NCBI GenBank assembly: GCA_937872315.1
Contig: CALMST010000027.1
Location: 1-42,684 of the forward strand
Direction of reading: 5' to 3'
Source: an uncultured Ignavibacteria bacterium
GTDB taxonomy: Bacteria; Bacteroidota; Ignavibacteria; Tepidaquicellales; Tepidaquicellaceae
Length of the DNA stretch: 42,684 nt
Both the position numbers and the translations under genes were made by a program. The notes under the pieces were generated by a model. It was not told where the DNA came from. It saw nothing but the letters and a program-made list of their open reading frames with translations, and ran no database searches. Positions 8,328 through 33,560 of the stretch are shown one piece after another (the stretch's first letter is position 1; the number at the start of each line of letters is the position of its first letter).

Positions 8328-9092
8328 ATGAAAGTAATTGTATTAGGTACCGGTACATCGCAGGGTGTACCTGTAATTGGCTGTAAATGTGAAACCTGCC
8401 GGTCAGAAAATCCAAAGGATAAAAGATTAAGAACTTCGGCTTATATTGAGACCGGCGGCTCGAAAATACTGATCGACACTTCCATAGATTTCAGACAGCA
8501 GATGCTGATTAATAATATTGATGACGTAGATTCGGTTTTATATACTCATCATCATGTTGATCATATTAACGGAATGGATGATCTCAGACAGATCACTCAG
8601 AAGCACAAAAAAACCATCGAGCTTTACGGCAACAAAACTACCGTTGATGAAATGAAGATATCATTCAGATATGTTTTTGAAAAGGATCTCATCAAACATC
8701 ATGCAGTGCCGCTTGTTCATTTCAATAAGATTACAAATAAAGAATTTATGACAGGCGACGTGAAAATCATTCCCGTAGAATGCATGCACGGCAATCTGAA
8801 AATTTTCGGATACAGGATAAATGATTTTGCTTACATCACAGACTGCAGTTACATTTCAGATAAAGAATTAAAAAAGCTTGAAGGATTGAAAATACTGGTG
8901 CTCAATGCATTACGGATCAGACCTCATCCGACACATTTCAATCTGCAGCAGGCGATTGAAGTTGCAAAAAAAGTTAAACCAAAGAAAACTTATTTTACTC
9001 ATCTTACTCATGATATTCTTCATAAAAAAATTAATTCGACCTTGCCAAAGGGTATCGAACTGGGATATGACGGAATGGAATTCAATCTGTAA
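8328..9092 (+). CDS. MBL-fold metallo-hydrolase (PhnP-like)
   Basis: A 254-residue metallo-beta-lactamase-fold phosphodiesterase. The metal-binding motif is THHHVDHINGMDDL (H74, H76, D78, H79), further ligands are expected in VECMHGNLKIFGYRI and DCSYIS, and a last His lies in THLTHDI. The N-terminal LGTGTSQGVPVIGCKCETC carries three cysteines (19, 21, 24) in the spacing of the structural zinc site of PhnP. That places it with PhnP-type cyclic phosphodiesterases rather than with RNase Z or glyoxalase II. There is no phn cluster here, so a role in phosphonate use is not supported; a general phosphodiesterase role is more likely. Confidence 0.85.
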   Translation: MKVIVLGTGTSQGVPVIGCKCETCRSENPKDKRLRTSAYIETGGSKILIDTSIDFRQQMLINNIDDVDSVLYTHHHVDHINGMDDLRQITQKHKKTIELYGNKTTVDEMKISFRYVFEKDLIKHHAVPLVHFNKITNKEFMTGDVKIIPVECMHGNLKIFGYRINDFAYITDCSYISDKELKKLEGLKILVLNALRIRPHPTHFNLQQAIEVAKKVKPKKTYFTHLTHDILHKKINSTLPKGIELGYDGMEFNL

Positions 9093-9114
9093 GTATGCTA
9101 ATAAAAATCTATAA

Positions 9115-9885
9115 ATGAAGAATACTTTAATCAAAGCTGCACTTGAATCAGGAAGGATTTTAAAAGAAAATTTCGGAAGTAATTTTAAGATATCGAGTAA
9201 GGACGTAGTTTCAAATCTTGTAACTGAGATCGATAAAAAATCAGAAGAAAAAATCTTTGAAATTATAAAACAGGATTTTCCCGGACATTACATTTTATCG
9301 GAGGAAGCCGGAGCCTTAGCGCAGGAATCTGAATACAAGTGGATCATAGATCCGATAGACGGGACAGTTAATTATGCGCATGCCATCCCGCTTACCTGTG
9401 TTTCAATTGCTCTGGAAAAAAGCGGAGTAGTGATCCTCGGAGCTGTTTATAATCCTATCTCAGGTGAATTTTTCTTTGCTGAAAAAGACAAAGGCTCTTA
9501 TCTTAATGATGAAAAGATTTATGTTTCTGACTGTACCGATTTTGAACGATCGCTTCTGGTCACGGGATTTCCTTATGATTCGAGCAGTTACAAACCTGAT
9601 CCGGTGGCAGTTTTTAAGAAATTCATAATGCGTGACATGCCGATCAGAAGACTTGGCTCTGCAGCGCTTGATCTGTGCTGGACAGCATGCGGAAGATTCG
9701 AAGCATTCTGGGAATATAATCTGAATGCCTGGGATGTTGCAGCAGGCGCGTTGATATTAGAAGAAGCCGGTGGTCTGATCACGGATCTTTCCGGAGAAAA
9801 GTTTTCAATATTCGGAAAGGAATTACTTGCTGTGAATAATAACATTATACAAAATGCCATGCTTGAAGTAATCAATGAAAACTGA
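9115..9885 (+). CDS. suhB: Inositol monophosphatase family protein
   Basis: A 256-residue Mg-dependent sugar-phosphate phosphatase. The metal-binding residues are all present: SEEAG (E63), WIIDPIDGTVNYAHAIP (D79, D82) and the late WDVAAGALILEEAGG (D207). This is the full motif set of the IMPase/SuhB family, and the length is typical. Likely substrates are inositol-1-phosphate or similar sugar phosphates; SuhB-like members also act on rRNA transcription in some bacteria. The gene follows the PhnP-like gene by 22 bases, and its stop overlaps the start of the DUF423 gene. Confidence 0.88.
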   Translation: MKNTLIKAALESGRILKENFGSNFKISSKDVVSNLVTEIDKKSEEKIFEIIKQDFPGHYILSEEAGALAQESEYKWIIDPIDGTVNYAHAIPLTCVSIALEKSGVVILGAVYNPISGEFFFAEKDKGSYLNDEKIYVSDCTDFERSLLVTGFPYDSSSYKPDPVAVFKKFIMRDMPIRRLGSAALDLCWTACGRFEAFWEYNLNAWDVAAGALILEEAGGLITDLSGEKFSIFGKELLAVNNNIIQNAMLEVINEN

Positions 9886-10261
9886 TAAAGAATTAAGAAT
9901 GGACAGTTCGAAGAAATGGATAATCATCAGCGCGGTTATGGGATTTCTCGGGGTAGCGCTAGGAGCGTTTGGAGCTCACAGTCTCAAACCATACATAGAT
10001 CCGGATAAACTTGATGTTTACAAAACCGGAACTCATTATCAGATGATCCATGCAGTTGTAATGCTGGCAACAGCCTTTCTCGGAGATAAAATTTATCTGA
10101 AAGCCGAAAAATTTTTCCTTGCAGGAATAATATTGTTTTCATTTTCGCTGTATCTTTATTCAATAACATCCATAGTTGCTTTTGCAATGGTGACACCTGT
10201 AGGGGGAGTTTCGTTTTTGACCGGATGGGCGGTTTTGATTGTGGAAGCGGCGAGACGTTAG
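9875..10261 (+). CDS. DUF423 membrane protein
   Basis: A 128-residue membrane protein of the DUF423 (YgdD-like) family. GFLGVALGAFGAHSLKPY at about 20-37 is the family signature, followed by THYQMIHAVVMLA and three more hydrophobic segments. Function is unknown in the family. The ATG at 9875 overlaps the suhB stop; a second ATG at 9899 (MDSSKKWIIISAV) is equally plausible. The last codons (EAARR and TAG) lie in the heptameric repeat that begins at 10250, so the repeat has set the C-terminus. Confidence 0.82.
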   Translation: MKTDKELRMDSSKKWIIISAVMGFLGVALGAFGAHSLKPYIDPDKLDVYKTGTHYQMIHAVVMLATAFLGDKIYLKAEKFFLAGIILFSFSLYLYSITSIVAFAMVTPVGGVSFLTGWAVLIVEAARR

Positions 10262-10273
10262 ACGCGAGACGTG
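10250..10273. repeat. Left inverted heptamer repeat flanking the four-helix-bundle gene
   Basis: The 24 bases have period seven (GAGACGT, TAGACGC, GAGACGT). The first 16, GCGAGACGTTAGACGC, recur exactly in inverted orientation at 10783-10798, and the next eight match there with two changes. It covers the last three codons and the stop of the DUF423 gene. Confidence 0.7.
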
Positions 10274-10390
10274 GGTTGTTGGATCATAAATGTTGAAGTT
10301 GCTATATAATTTTGGGGATAATGTAAGTTTAGAATAATTGTAAAGATAGATTTTATTTTAGAAAAGAAAGAATTAATTTGTTCTTCATAA

Positions 10391-10397
10391 AAGGAGG
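10391..10397 (+). promoter_or_regulatory. Strong Shine-Dalgarno of the four-helix-bundle gene
   Basis: AAGGAGG lies five bases before the ATG at 10403. A full anti-SD match is rare in this window, where most genes have none (gyrB and glyQS, for example). Another clear case is GAAGGAGG in front of the xanthine dehydrogenase large subunit. It supports 10403 as the real start and hints at an acquired gene. Confidence 0.6.
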
Positions 10398-10402
10398 ATT
10401 TT

Positions 10403-10759
10403 ATGTTGAATTTAAGTCACAAAAGATTAGAAGCAAGGGGTCTTAGTTTAGAAATAATAAATATAATATATAAACTTACAGAAGATTTCCCTACAAAAGA
10501 AACTTATGGAATTTCATCTTAAATGAGAAGATGTTCAGTTTCTGTTAGATCGAATCTGGCTGAAGGTCGTTCCAGAAATACAGCAAATGAAAAGAGAGGA
10601 TTTTTTGAAATAGCCGGATCATCTTTGGTAGAGTTAGATACACAGCTTGAAATATCAATCAGGTTAAAATATTTAGACTGGAACAAATATGGTTATCTTG
10701 ATGAAATGATAAATAAATTTTTTGCAAAACTTACAAATTTAATTTTAAAAACTATATAA
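10403..10759 (+). pseudogene. Four-helix-bundle (IVS/S23-type) protein, broken by in-frame TAA
   Basis: From the ATG at 10403 the frame reads MLNLSHKRLEARGLSLEIIN, continues to FPTKETYGISS, then has TAA at 10520-10522 and continues in the same frame as MRRCSVSVRSNLAEGRSRN to the stop at 10757-10759. Joined, it is a full-length (118-codon) four-helix-bundle protein of the 23S rRNA intervening-sequence family. The family normally has YGLTSQ-RR-SVSIPSNIAEG at this spot, so the TAA stands where a Gln codon (CAA) is expected, a single C-to-T change. The usual Pro of the SIPSN motif is also Arg here. The 3' part (10523-10759) could start at an ATG, but would lack the first helix. The ORF lies between inverted repeats at 10250 and 10775. 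Confidence 0.75.
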
Positions 10760-10761
10760 TT

Positions 10762-11721
10762 ATGACAAACGTCTCACATCTTGCGTCTAACGTCTCGCGT
10801 AAAACAGCCGTCTTCGGCGGCACGGGAATGCTCGGGAGTTCGATCACCCGCCGTTTAAAAAGCAAAGGTTATGAAAATGTTCTTACTCCGTCGCGTAAAG
10901 ACGGATTCGATCTTCTGGATAAAGAAGCTGTAGAAAAATTCTTTAAAGAGGAAACTCCGGATAATGTTTATATGGTCGCGGGATTGGTTGGCGGAATTTT
11001 AGCCAATAATTCAAGGCAGGCAGATTTTCTTTATCAGAATGCACTGATGATACTTAATGTTATCGAAGCGCTTAAAGATTTTTCTCCGGAAACAAAACTT
11101 CTATATACAGGATCGACCTGCATTTATCCAAAGGAAAATCCACAGCCTATCAATGAAAGCAGATTCATGCACGGACCACTTGAAGAGACAAACAAAGGCT
11201 ATGCTGTAGCTAAAGGTATGGGGATCATTGCCTGCCAGCTGTACAGACAACAGTACGGTATCAATGCCATTGCAGCCATGCCGACAAATCTTTACGGACC
11301 GAATGACAATTACGATCTGACCAACTCACATTTTATAGCGGCTATGGTGCAGAAGTTTGTGAATGCTCAGCGTGACGGCACCGAACTCGTATTCTGGGGC
11401 AGCGGCAAACCGAGACGTGAAGCCCTTTATGTTGATGACTGCGCTGATGCCTGTATCTATCTTATGGAAAATTATGATAAACCCGAGATAGTTAATATAG
11501 GTACCGGGTTTGATAATTCCATTAAAGAATATATCGAAATTGCTCAGAAGGTTTTTGAGTTCGATAAAGAGATCAAATGGGATACTTCAAAACCGGATGG
11601 CATGTATGAGAAGAGAACAGACATTGCATATCTGAAAAGCATTATGCCGGATTATGCGCCGAGGAAATTTGAGGATGGATTGAAGGATGTGCTTAAGATT
11701 GATTTTGGAGTGGAAGTTTAA
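10762..11721 (+). CDS. fcl: GDP-L-fucose synthase
   Basis: A 319-residue short-chain-dehydrogenase-type epimerase/reductase that makes GDP-L-fucose from GDP-4-keto-6-deoxymannose with NADPH. The cofactor loop is GGTGMLG (19-25), and the catalytic Ser-Tyr-Lys set is S118 in YTGSTCIYP and Y147/K151 in GYAVAKG. NLYGPNDNYDLTNSHFIAA and the later GSGKPRREALYVDD are typical for WcaG/Fcl. The first 13 residues (MTNVSHLASNVSR) are encoded by the heptameric repeat at 10769-10800, and no alternative in-frame start lies between them and the Rossmann motif, so the repeat appears to provide the N-terminus. No GDP-mannose dehydratase gene is in the window. Confidence 0.9.
   Translation: MTNVSHLASNVSRKTAVFGGTGMLGSSITRRLKSKGYENVLTPSRKDGFDLLDKEAVEKFFKEETPDNVYMVAGLVGGILANNSRQADFLYQNALMILNVIEALKDFSPETKLLYTGSTCIYPKENPQPINESRFMHGPLEETNKGYAVAKGMGIIACQLYRQQYGINAIAAMPTNLYGPNDNYDLTNSHFIAAMVQKFVNAQRDGTELVFWGSGKPRREALYVDDCADACIYLMENYDKPEIVNIGTGFDNSIKEYIEIAQKVFEFDKEIKWDTSKPDGMYEKRTDIAYLKSIMPDYAPRKFEDGLKDVLKIDFGVEV
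10769..10800. repeat. Right inverted heptamer repeat, inside the fucose synthase N-terminus
   Basis: The 32 bases have period seven (ACGTCTC, ACATCTT, GCGTCTA, ACGTCTC). The reverse complement of 10775-10798 matches 10250-10273 at 22 of 24 positions. The repeat is translated as part of the first codons of the fucose synthase gene. Confidence 0.7.
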
Positions 11722-11730
11722 ATCAATTGG

Positions 11731-11748
11731 GAATTAGGAATTAGGAAT
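11731..11748. repeat. Short heptamer repeat after fucose synthase
   Basis: GAATTAG occurs twice in tandem, followed by GAAT, ten bases after the fucose synthase stop. In the other strand the unit is CTAATTC, close to the CTAATAC unit at 14449-14483, so it appears to belong to the same dispersed family. It lies directly upstream of the hicBA relic. Confidence 0.55.
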
Positions 11749-11786
11749 AAAAAATTAATACAACCAAAATATATTATTATTTCTGC

Positions 11787-11921
11787 AAAATTTTAACGGC
11801 AATAATTCATAAAGAGAAAAAATATTATGTCGCTGAAGGTACTTTGAGAGGTAAACTAAGACAGGCTAAGATTTCTCCTGAAGATTTTATTAATTCATTA
11901 AAAAATAGATCAGCATTTTAA
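11787..11921 (+). pseudogene. Fused relic of a hicB-hicA toxin-antitoxin pair
   Basis: One open frame of 44 codons and a stop, with no start codon at its head, reads KILTAIIHKEKKYYVA and then EGTLRGKLRQAKISPEDFIN to the end SLKNRSAF. The first 16 residues match the beginning of HicB antitoxins (LTAII-KE--YVA). The remainder matches the last part of HicA toxins (GTLR-ILRQA-IS-EEF---L). The middle of both genes is gone, and the junction is in frame, as if one deletion removed the 3' part of hicB and the 5' part of hicA. It lies just before glyQS. The call rests on recognition of both family ends and would be confirmed by a profile search. Confidence 0.6.
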
Positions 11922-11927
11922 AAATAT

Positions 11928-13397
11928 ATGTCAGATAAAAAAAACAGCAATAAATCAGATGTAACTGAAAAAATAGTTTCGCTTTCGAAAAGAAGAGGAT
12001 TGATATTTCAGTCTTCCGAGATCTATGGCGGACTCAACGGTTGTTATGATTACGGTCCGTTGGGAGTTGAGCTTTTAAGGAATATCAAAGAAGCATGGTG
12101 GAAAGAGATGACCTACCGTGAGGACGTTGAAGGTCTTGATGCATCGATACTTATGCATCCGAGAGTATGGGAAGCATCGGGACACGTTGAGCATTTTTCA
12201 GATCCGATGGTTGACTGTAAAAGCTGCAAATCAAGATACAGAGTTGATGTGCTGTTTGAAACATTATCGGCAAAGAACAAGAAAGTTGTTTCGGAAGAGA
12301 TCTTAAAAGCAAACAGTTCACTCACAGATTCAGAAGACAGCATAAAAGAATTTTTTACCAGTGATCCTAATCCATATCTGAGTTTGCTGGTCTGTCCTAA
12401 CTGCGGCAACAAAGAGACATTCACCGAAGCAAGAAGTTTTAACCTGATGTTCAAGACTTTTATCGGACCATTGGAAGACTCCTCAAATGCAGTATTTCTA
12501 AGACCAGAAACAGCTCAGGGAATCTATGTGAATTTTAATAATGTAAAAGAATCTTCCCGTCAGAAATTACCCTTTGGAATTGCGCAGGTTGGGAAGGCAT
12601 TCAGGAATGAGATAAACACAAAGAATTTTTTATTCAGGACAAGAGAGTTTGAGCAGATGGAGATGCAGTATTTCATAAATCCGGCAGATGATGATAAATG
12701 GTTTGAGTACTGGCGCGAACAGAGATTCAACTGGTTTATAAAATACGGAATGGATCCGGCTAAACTAAAACTTCACGTTCATGAAAAACTTGCACATTAT
12801 GCAAAAGCTGCGGTTGATATTGAGTTTGAATTCCCGTTCGGATGGGGCGAGATAGAGGGTATTCATAACAGAACGGATTTTGATCTGAAAAGACACACTG
12901 AATTTTCCGGAAAGAAGATAGAATATTTTGATGATCAGACAAAAGAAAGATTTACACCTTATGTAATTGAGACATCAGCCGGTGCTTCAAGAAGTTTTTT
13001 TGCATTTCTTTGTAATGCTTATGATGAAGAAGAGATGGTCAGGGAAAATTCAGATGGTACGAGTTCATCCGAGACAAGGACAGTTCTCCGTTTCCATCCG
13101 GCACTTGCTCCGATAAAAGCAGCAGTGTTCCCGCTTGTAAACCGTGACGGCATGCAGGACATAGCTCAGAATATTTCAGCAGATCTGAGAAAGAATTTCA
13201 AAGTGTTTTATGATGATTCGGGTGCAGTCGGAAGACGTTACAGGAGACAGGATGAATGCGGTACACCGTTTTGCATTACGGTGGATTCTGATACACTGAC
13301 TGATGATACGGTTACAGTAAGAGACCGTGATTCGATGGTACAGGAGAGGATCAATAAGGATAATATCCAGAGTTATATAAACTCAAAATTGATTTAA
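11928..13397 (+). CDS. glyQS: Glycyl-tRNA synthetase, single-chain dimeric type
   Basis: A 489-residue class II aminoacyl-tRNA synthetase that charges tRNA-Gly. KRRGLIFQSSEIYGGLNGCY near the N-terminus, CKSCKSRYR with a later CPNCGNKETFTEARSFNLMF, RPETAQGIYVNFNN (motif 2 region), FRTREFEQMEMQYF and the C-terminal anticodon-binding part (PIKAAVFPLVNRDGM, then GRRYRRQDECGTPFC) are those of the alpha2-type enzyme also found in Gram-positive bacteria, archaea and eukaryotes, rather than the split GlyQ/GlyS type. There is no Shine-Dalgarno before the ATG. The upstream 200 bases hold a heptamer repeat and the hicBA relic; no T-box is visible. Confidence 0.93.
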   Translation: MSDKKNSNKSDVTEKIVSLSKRRGLIFQSSEIYGGLNGCYDYGPLGVELLRNIKEAWWKEMTYREDVEGLDASILMHPRVWEASGHVEHFSDPMVDCKSCKSRYRVDVLFETLSAKNKKVVSEEILKANSSLTDSEDSIKEFFTSDPNPYLSLLVCPNCGNKETFTEARSFNLMFKTFIGPLEDSSNAVFLRPETAQGIYVNFNNVKESSRQKLPFGIAQVGKAFRNEINTKNFLFRTREFEQMEMQYFINPADDDKWFEYWREQRFNWFIKYGMDPAKLKLHVHEKLAHYAKAAVDIEFEFPFGWGEIEGIHNRTDFDLKRHTEFSGKKIEYFDDQTKERFTPYVIETSAGASRSFFAFLCNAYDEEEMVRENSDGTSSSETRTVLRFHPALAPIKAAVFPLVNRDGMQDIAQNISADLRKNFKVFYDDSGAVGRRYRRQDECGTPFCITVDSDTLTDDTVTVRDRDSMVQERINKDNIQSYINSKLI

Positions 13398-14448: not shown

Positions 14449-14483
14449 CCAATACTAAATACCTAATACTTAATACCTAATAC
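14449..14483. repeat. Five-unit heptamer repeat
   Basis: Five consecutive 7-base units: CCAATAC, TAAATAC, CTAATAC, TTAATAC, CTAATAC. It fills the gap between the convergent Crp/Fnr and rhomboid genes. The last unit supplies the stop codon and final Tyr codon of the rhomboid gene on the minus strand. Confidence 0.7.
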
Positions 14484-15211
14484 CTGAAATTATCCGGCTC
14501 TGCATCTTCATCTATCCCGGTTTCATCAGCTAAATTTTCTTCATCCTGATCAGGTTCATCTTCGAGATCATCTTCATAATCTTCTTCTTCCCATTCATAA
14601 ACAGGCGGAGGATCATTTTTTCTGAAAATGAAAGCGCAGGCAATACCGATTATTGCACCGGACAAATGTGATTCAAAAGAGATTTTAGGATCTATAGGCA
14701 ATACTCCCCAGACCATTCCACCGTAAAGAAAAACTATCAGAAGGGAAAGCGCAATGGATCTTTTGTCTTTTCTGAAGAGTCCGCTGAAAAACAGAAAAGC
14801 TGCAAAACCATATACAAGTCCGCTGGCGCCAATATGATATGAATGTCTGGCAAAAAACCAGACCAGTATGCCGTTTGAAATATAAATTATCACAAATACT
14901 ATTACTGCAGAGCTTCTGTAAAAGTATAAAATACCAAACAGCAAAAGGAATAGTGTAACCGAATTAGAGATCAGATGTGAGAAATCGGCATGAACAAGAG
15001 GAGCGGTGAAAATTCCTTTTAGTCCTGAAACTTTTCCGGGATATACGCCAAAGACAGAAAGATCCGTTTCTGAAGCCCATTGATAAAACTGAACAAGCCA
15101 GAGAAATAACACAAAACAACCGCTGAAAAAAATTGAAGAAAGTATTTTGTTTTTTTCTTTAGATTCTTCTTCGGTTGGATCTTTACCGTAAACATCCCAA
15201 TCATGATCCAT
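14477..15211 (-). CDS. Rhomboid family intramembrane serine protease
   Basis: A 244-residue membrane protease. The catalytic serine lies in HIGASGLVYGFAAF (S130) and the catalytic histidine in FESHLSGAIIG (H182). The earlier HADFSHLISN carries the conserved His and Asn of the oxyanion region in the second helix. Six or seven hydrophobic helices are seen. An acidic N-terminal extension (DPTEEESKEKN) and a strongly acidic C-terminal tail of about 45 residues (many Asp and Glu after YEWEEED) flank the core. The last residue and stop codon come from the heptamer repeat. Substrates are unknown. Confidence 0.88.
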   Translation of the reverse strand: MDHDWDVYGKDPTEEESKEKNKILSSIFFSGCFVLFLWLVQFYQWASETDLSVFGVYPGKVSGLKGIFTAPLVHADFSHLISNSVTLFLLLFGILYFYRSSAVIVFVIIYISNGILVWFFARHSYHIGASGLVYGFAAFLFFSGLFRKDKRSIALSLLIVFLYGGMVWGVLPIDPKISFESHLSGAIIGIACAFIFRKNDPPPVYEWEEEDYEDDLEDEPDQDEENLADETGIDEDAEPDNFRY

Positions 15212-19056: not shown

Positions 19057-19065
19057 TTTTAAAAA

Positions 19066-19114
19066 GTATTGAGTATTGAGTATTGAGTAGTGTGTATTGT
19101 GTATTGTGTAGTGA
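19066..19114. repeat. Seven-unit heptamer array between dnaN and recF
   Basis: Seven uninterrupted 7-base units: GTATTGA three times, then GTAGTGT, GTATTGT, GTATTGT, GTAGTGA. It begins ten bases after the dnaN stop. On the opposite strand the main unit is TCAATAC, close to the CCAATAC/CTAATAC units at 14449-14483. Confidence 0.8.
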
Positions 19115-19277
19115 GTAACATTCTGCTATTCGGATTTAGTAATATAAATTTTTTTTATTATCAAGAGTTTTCATTAATTATATATCCTGCCGTTCAACAG
19201 CACTGAACATATACATTGTAAAAATTATCATTACTTAACTGAATTTTACTAAGTGGTCATGATGAATGAGACCAATT

Positions 19278-33185: not shown

Positions 33186-33560
33186 ATGTGCAGAATTATT
33201 AAATGCGTTTTTGCAGATCAAAACTATCCTGGTAATGAATTTCAGGAAGTAAATTATCAGCGCGCACGGACTTATGAGTTTTAGCCGGAAGATCCGGGTT
33301 TTAAAAGGAACAGGAAACGGACACATACTGTAAAGAACTCTATAAGCCTTTTGAAAACAGGCGTGCTGATTTTTTTCTGAAAGCTAAACAGATAGTAGAA
33401 CTAAAATCTGTAATTCACTTGGAAGATGTTCATCTTGCGCAGGCGATAAATTATCTTGGAGAGTTTAAACTTGAAGTTGGTTTATTATTAAATTCGGATC
33501 AAAGGAACTTCAATTCAAAAGAGTCATGTTAAATGAAAACCAGTTAAAAATTGCAGCGCA
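33186..33560 (+). pseudogene. GxxExxY (PDDEXK_3) protein, heavily frameshifted
   Basis: A degraded gene of the GxxExxY family, which has a PD-(D/E)XK nuclease-like core. The frame from 33186 reads MCRIIKCVFADQNYPGNEFQ, then EVNYQRARTYEF, then TAG; GNEFQEVNYQ corresponds to the family's GxxExxY motif. The continuation changes frame: PEDPGFKRNRK (a shifted KDPGFKREQE), then CKELYKPFENRRADFFLKA and KQIVELKSVIHLEDVHLAQA with NYLGEFKLEVGLLLN. After that a single missing base shifts FGSKELQFKRVMLNENQ into another frame. At least three or four indels separate the pieces. The RADFF and VELK residues of the nuclease-like core remain. The end near 33560 is approximate. Confidence 0.72.

Follow-up and report, generated by a model that had tools for sequence, protein, structure and literature searches.

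The question raised by this locus is whether a short gene of the four-helix-bundle (FHB) family, the type found in intervening sequences (IVS) of rRNA, and the two inverted heptamer arrays on either side of it in intergenic DNA form one mobile unit. The window, meaning the whole stretch of DNA that was analysed (42,684 nucleotides), comes from a draft genome of 4.56 Mb (386 contigs), of which it forms contig 27. When an alignment of the family proteins of the order was used as the query, the best named match was an Ignavibacteria MAG. The features of the locus are as follows.

9875..10261, + strand: upstream neighbour, a DUF423 gene, which ends within the left arm.
10250..10289, + strand: left arm, a period-7 array (GAGACGT TAGACGC GAGACGT ...), overlapping the end of the DUF423 gene.
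10390..10397, + strand: Shine-Dalgarno sequence AAAGGAGG of the FHB frame, common to two sister species.
10403..10759, + strand: FHB gene (PF05635 / TIGR02436 type), read as a pseudogene, with TAA at 10520-10522; intact orthologues occupy the same site in the sister species G001 and G002.
10760..10798, - strand: right arm, the inverted copy of the array (GCGAGACGT TAGACGC AAGATGT GAGACGT), overlapping the annotated start of the fcl frame.
10762..11721, + strand: downstream neighbour, an NAD-dependent epimerase (fcl-type), the first residues of which (about MTNVSHLASNVSR) come from the right arm.

The 24-base repeat GCGAGACGTTAGACGCGAGACGTG at 10250-10273 and its inverse at 10775-10798 are identical at 22 of 24 positions, exactly as the initial annotation had described. 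The ungapped arm pair reaches 31 nt (10250-10280 / 10768-10798, 84% match), and gapped local alignment covers 10250-10289 / 10760-10798 with a score of 21. The DUF423 gene has its stop codon (10259-10261) within the left array, and the right array encodes the first residues of the annotated fcl frame. The repeats are short and of low complexity, as a chance likeness of the two arms would have it, but none of 408 ORFs of a relative scored 20 or more, against 21 for the window. The same design, with changed units, was found in both sister species and recurs across the order and many phyla; chance is already refuted as the explanation of this pair, and its probability is close to nil.

The ORF between the arms belongs to PF05635 (E 8e-25; 87.5 bits against a cut-off of 33.8; positions 3-105 of 106), which bears out the family assigned to it initially. 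It is not an intact reading frame, however, since 10403-10759 is interrupted in frame by one TAA (10520-10522, codon 40). In G001 and G002 the frame is open where the window has the TAA, and the FHB gene is intact at the same site. On comparison of these frames the window copy is taken to be a pseudogene, and dN/dS in comparisons that involve it rises to 0.42. The order DUF423-[FHB]-fcl is kept in all three genomes of the genus. The flanking genes of the sister species align well, and the arms differ in unit, both arms together (GTCAGACG-like in G002, TTAGACG/TGAGACG-like in G001, GAGACGT/TAGACGC in the window). The strong Shine-Dalgarno sequence noted earlier as atypical is real, but as a hallmark of FHB genes it was rejected: GGAGG precedes only 8 of 97 FHB genes, against 3-5% of other ORFs, and is a trait of the window's subfamily. 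Fold prediction for the window transcript gave a z of -4.5, with the arms predicted to close a long stem. Between the arms lies the FHB frame only, with no transposase gene. A search of 9000-12500 against Rfam returned no match, the cassette being situated between DUF423 and fcl and not in rRNA, and a narrow search for viral contigs carrying the window protein found none. The stretch 10250-10798 is quite probably a copy, now decayed, of a mobile or once-mobile module without a transposase, a judgement that concerns its identity as such a module.

In the genome at large, the pattern AGACGYNAGACGYNAGA was found at three places, namely both window arms and C57:20777. An exact heptamer was rejected as a signature, having only this one further place, at a contig end. 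There (L003 1485-1663) heptamer arrays of GAGACGT, TCAGACG, and AATACTC follow one another after the stop codon of a gene and the contig then ends; the arrays may be the cause of the assembly breaks at this point. The signature is not GCGAGACGTTAGACGC but the presence of inverted arrays of period 7 to 9, with units that differ by site. The genome has 8 PF05635 hits, two of which look like one locus on two contigs and one of which is a fragment, and inverted period-7 arrays stand on both sides of nearly every FHB gene whose flanks could be read (units TACTCAA, AAATTAC/AAATTTC, TTTAAAA, CTCATAT, TTTGGAA, and the window's GAGACGT).

FHB genes were present in 37 of 40 relatives, with 1-10 copies each. 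For the order, 99 FHB genes were collected from the best-scoring matches in genomes that are mostly drafts and MAGs, and 91 of them had full 250-base flanks. To obtain the arm score, the left flank was locally aligned to the right flank in reverse complement; the thresholds were chosen once the first loci were known, and controls were scored identically. A score of at least 13 was reached by 82% of the 91 FHB loci, compared with 1.5% of the 408 other ORFs, 0.5% of windows shifted by 700 bases, and 8.5% of cross-paired flanks of different loci. At a score of at least 20 the figure for FHB loci was 52%, against 0 for other ORFs, 0 for shifted windows, and 1.2% for cross-paired flanks. Control genes at 13 or more were few (DUF423 4%, nitrilase paralogues 0%, carA 0%, other ORFs of G009 5%), and the same FHB flanks taken in direct orientation gave 11% at 13 or more and 3% at 20 or more. 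Among arms in the order, the period was 7 in 164, 8 in 35, and 9 in 14, and left arms were C-poor. A fixed heptamer consensus was considered and set aside, as it was only weak (2.36 bits per unit versus 1.83 in permuted units, maximum 1.93 of 20).

A wider sample of 80 loci was picked from a genome collection by protein similarity alone, its sources including Bacteroidota, Clostridia, the candidate phyla radiation, Acidobacteria, Chloroflexi, and Proteobacteria. Of its 73 loci with full flanks, from many phyla, 70% scored at least 13, compared with 2.6% of cross-paired flanks. A second sample, 29 loci from the phylum, gave 45% at the same threshold. Detectable arms were absent at 18% of loci in the order, about 30% elsewhere, and 55% of the phylum sample. 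No rRNA match was found at 20 diverse FHB loci, and in two Rhodanobacter genomes the cassette lies between accB- and accC-like genes with GGGAATC/GGGATTC-like arms. Judged from these flank comparisons, the inverted-array anatomy is general for FHB genes. The initial proposal of a small IVS-related unit, an FHB gene between inverted repeats that spreads to intergenic DNA, is well supported and holds far more widely than in the window.

In an unbiased scan of 839 kb from three genomes, periodic inverted pairs mostly enclosed FHB genes. The few exceptions were a periodic pair that flanks a GxxExxY gene and another that flanks an unrelated gene; the remaining inverted pairs were palindromic, including those of RAYT-like and GIY-YIG genes. 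Inverted arms were found at 18 of 25 GxxExxY (PF13366) genes (L141-L170), with CACAGAG/CACTAAG-like units of period 8-10, and these loci represent a parallel case to the FHB cassettes. The window itself holds a GxxExxY (PF13366) gene remnant between two ORFs (33353-33502), a decayed member of this parallel class. GIY-YIG genes were rejected as members of the same class, since the arms detected at 8 of 22 are palindromic and not periodic. Two pairs in contig C8 of G009 (loci L121-L134) also stand out, one close, inverted, and MITE-like beside an FHB fragment (205955-206078) and one of period 9 around an unrelated gene (166984-167708).

Solo arrays are common as well, with 61 in the 839 kb of sampled genome stretches to which the count was confined, against about 5 in simulated sequence, and most of them lie away from FHB genes. 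Three occur in the window: a GTATTGA array at 19060-19118 that begins 4 bases past the dnaN stop codon without an inverted partner and shares its unit family with the arms of the nitrilase-preT FHB cassette in the window's genus; a period-7 array (GGAATTA) at 11723-11755, just past the fcl stop, in a fcl-glyS gap that also contains a short, unassigned frame remnant; and a period-7 array (AATACTT/AATACCT) at 14451-14489 between convergent genes. In G009, 22 solo arrays match the genome's own FHB arms better than the arms of other genomes (18.5 vs 13.3, sd 1.4; 0 of 2000), and in the small sets from G025 and G000 (the window's genome) the likeness was not significant. The abundance of intergenic arrays away from FHB genes, together with published heptamer arrays of Xanthomonas and Nostoc reported without a mobile-element link (PMC4692102), is what would be expected if the arrays were an independent family of gene-end repeats beside or into which FHB cassettes merely insert. 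Insertion into an array should, however, leave direct flanks, and the flanks are inverted (82% versus 11% direct, at 13 or more); moreover, arms at unrelated sites are alike when their FHB proteins are alike. The earlier concern that the repeats might be common at gene ends without the ORF is correct for solo arrays and incorrect for periodic inverted pairs at the window's arm spacing, which are nearly restricted to FHB and GxxExxY genes. An independent repeat family is thus already disfavoured and has a small probability.

Evidence that the cassette moves as a unit was sought in its arms and in its sites. Across sites that share no flanking gene, arm similarity tracks FHB identity, and 0 of 2000 permutations reached the observed correlation. 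An arm similarity of 15 or more was found in 2% of pairs with less than 30% FHB identity and in 23% of those with more than 60%. Because arms are alike when the FHB proteins are alike, even at unrelated sites, arms and gene appear to travel together. The closest relative of the window clade at another site, L026 in G005 (support 0.85), also carries GTGAGACGT units. The initial annotation had asked whether empty sites exist. None was found for DUF423-fcl: the two genes were found as neighbours in the three members of the genus alone, each with the cassette, and not outside the genus; occupied and empty versions do exist at carA-carB and nitrilase-preT. In genus g17, the carA-carB junction holds an FHB gene in 2 genomes, an FHB remnant with a left array in a third, GxxExxY genes in 2 others, and gaps of 3-8 bases in 2. 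At nitrilase-preT, in the window's family, an FHB gene is present in 5 genomes and the cassette is absent from 7, one of them with a gap of a few bases. Different, unrelated FHB genes were found at one junction. As a separate observation, the contents of the carA-carB junction in g17 (L195-L207) vary by species among FHB, GxxExxY, hairpin elements, and nothing, and the junction is a possible insertion hot spot.

A target-site duplication was not recognised at any of these sites; the carA-carB and nitrilase-preT junctions have diverged too far for one to be read, and the window locus has no conserved empty site. No transposition event was seen, and no genome was found to carry a nearly identical pair of FHB genes at separate sites; movement is therefore old or rare. 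A unit copied from the target site was hinted at by AATTTGATA near the empty carA-carB junction, but this idea was dropped because arms track FHB identity across sites. Two candidate enzymes acting in trans were likewise rejected as requirements. G000 and 28 of 40 relatives, G009 with its 10 FHB genes among them, gave no match to the RVT_1 reverse transcriptase, and this enzyme is thus missing from most carriers; Y1 transposase, with 4 genes in G000, is absent from 6 of 40 relatives, among them the carriers G007 (5 FHB genes) and G016 (5 FHB genes).

Once in place, the cassette is mostly inherited with its site. In the FHB tree, ten of 16 same-site sets correspond to exact clades and one more comes close, with strong support for most and only 0.23 for the window set, and therefore most sites were entered once and then inherited. 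Arms within a locus match each other better than arms across loci in 69 of 82 same-site pairs. These pairs are interdependent, and a clearly positive mean difference is confined to about half of the 14 clusters. Since within-locus arms are more alike, both arms appear to change unit together. Wobble pairing in RNA was rejected as the force that keeps the arms alike, there being no excess of G-U-compatible changes among arm mismatches (66 vs 62, p 0.79). Where measurable, dN/dS of FHB genes is mostly 0.01-0.2, with synonymous sites often saturated, values that point to strong purifying selection for the most part; very low values at some sites are as compatible with a gene useful to the host as with a selfish one. 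The upstream gene is co-directional with the FHB gene in 88 of 90 cases, and between tandem neighbours the FHB gene is in sense orientation in 74 and antisense in 0. Median values are 3 bases for the distance between the upstream stop codon and the left array and 503 bases for the cassette from arm to arm.

Much of this could also describe a resident, useful operon gene with little or no mobility, whose inverted arrays are stabilising or insulating hairpins under selection for pairing. The dN/dS of 0.01-0.02 at vertically inherited sites, the mostly monophyletic same-site copies, the sense orientation in operons, and the pairing of the arms in the predicted RNA fold all agree with such a gene. 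Occupied and empty sites inside one genus or family do not, nor do differing cassettes (FHB or GxxExxY) at one carA-carB junction, unrelated FHB genes that share a site, arms that track FHB identity across unrelated sites, or neighbour genes that are functionally unrelated, and selection for pairing does not agree with arm mismatches free of a G-U excess. A resident gene is accordingly regarded as unlikely, although less so than an independent repeat family.

The mobile or once-mobile module has a single FHB gene flanked by two inverted arrays of a 7-9-nt unit, spans about 500 nt including the arms, and sits in the sense direction between co-directional genes. After insertion its inheritance is mostly vertical, with the FHB gene under purifying selection and the arms changing unit jointly; the window copy has lost its reading frame and is decaying. 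The following mechanism is suggested for the module tentatively and, taken alone, is held with low confidence. The cassette would be transcribed by readthrough from the operon, and sense placement near the upstream stop fits such a dependence. Within the transcript the two arms would base-pair with each other, as those of rRNA IVS elements do and as the fold of the window RNA predicts, and the paired arms may be a substrate of RNase III. The FHB protein would form a ring whose subunits each bind one repeat of the unit, and would protect, deliver, or help to copy the cassette, while host enzymes cut and join. Two structures of the FHB family have been solved (2gsc, XCC0516, and 2rld), and XCC0516, an FHB relative, is a homopentamer with a ring of five subunits according to work cited in PMC4990558. 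Arms usually have four to five units, which would suit one unit per FHB subunit. Solo arrays may be relics or ends mobilised in trans, comparable to REP sequences beside RAYT. A broader proposal, conceivable but rather doubtful, is that FHB cassettes are a bacteria-wide mobile class without a transposase of its own, in which a ring of FHB protein reads arrays of 7-9-nt units by their period, unit and protein drift together, copying keeps the arms alike, and the protein also spreads solo arrays.

The closest kind of known element is the rRNA IVS with an S23p/FHB ORF, as in Coxiella and Leptospira, which shares the protein family, terminal inverted repeats, and sense orientation within a transcript. 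The IVS of Coxiella has 428 nt, with tandem heptamers GACAGAT ahead of the S23p ORF (PMC4990558), a size similar to the roughly 500 nt of the cassette. In contrast to these elements, the cassette lies between protein-coding genes of operons and not inside rRNA, its arms are tandem arrays with a site-specific unit, and its FHB gene is mostly under purifying selection; because it is not in rRNA, it is not an IVS as defined. The RAYT/REP pair likewise has a small gene between inverted repeats in intergenic DNA, with related solo repeats elsewhere (for the cassettes, in G009), but the cassette is without a HUH/Y1 transposase, and its arms are periodic arrays rather than single palindromes, with a unit that varies among cassettes of one genome. 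By analogy, the working of the cassette would most closely resemble that of an IVS in RNA and that of a RAYT/REP pair in the genome. The DGR accessory protein Avd is a related four-helix bundle, and an FHB relative matched the Avd model at E 4e-5, which is below the cut-off; the cassettes differ in having no DGR context and no RVT_1 match in the window's genome or in 28 of 40 relatives. From DNA transposons and insertion sequences the cassette differs in encoding no transposase.

Heptamer arrays themselves have been described before. The intergenic arrays of Xanthomonas (GGGAATC) and Nostoc (GGGGA(C/T)T) are described as quadruplex-forming, without a link to mobile elements or an FHB gene, and 70 of the Xanthomonas orphan arrays occur as convergent pairs (PMC4692102). 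The Xanthomonas arrays are close to the arms of the two Rhodanobacter FHB cassettes (GGGAATC/GGGATTC-like). The TAACTGA repeats of Beggiatoaceae are intergenic tandem heptamers like the cassette arms, but have one fixed unit and almost only direct orientation, and S23, 23S, or intervening sequences are not mentioned in that paper (PMC4679880). The open-access papers searched contain no account of FHB genes that lie between inverted arrays elsewhere than in rRNA.

FHB (S23p-like) genes are annotated without a function in very many bacteria, and orphan heptamer arrays have long been reported without explanation. If the present reading is correct, both belong to a single element, of which the rRNA IVS is the special case that landed in rRNA. 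Arrays spread by the protein would, if that part is true, explain the orphan heptamer arrays of many genomes. The reading also supplies a protein family of unassigned function with a defined substrate, in the form of each protein together with its own array, and poses an unusual evolutionary puzzle, namely how two inverted arms come to change their sequence jointly. An 'unknown' gene family that is very common thus appears to be an element that is, or once was, mobile and has no transposase.
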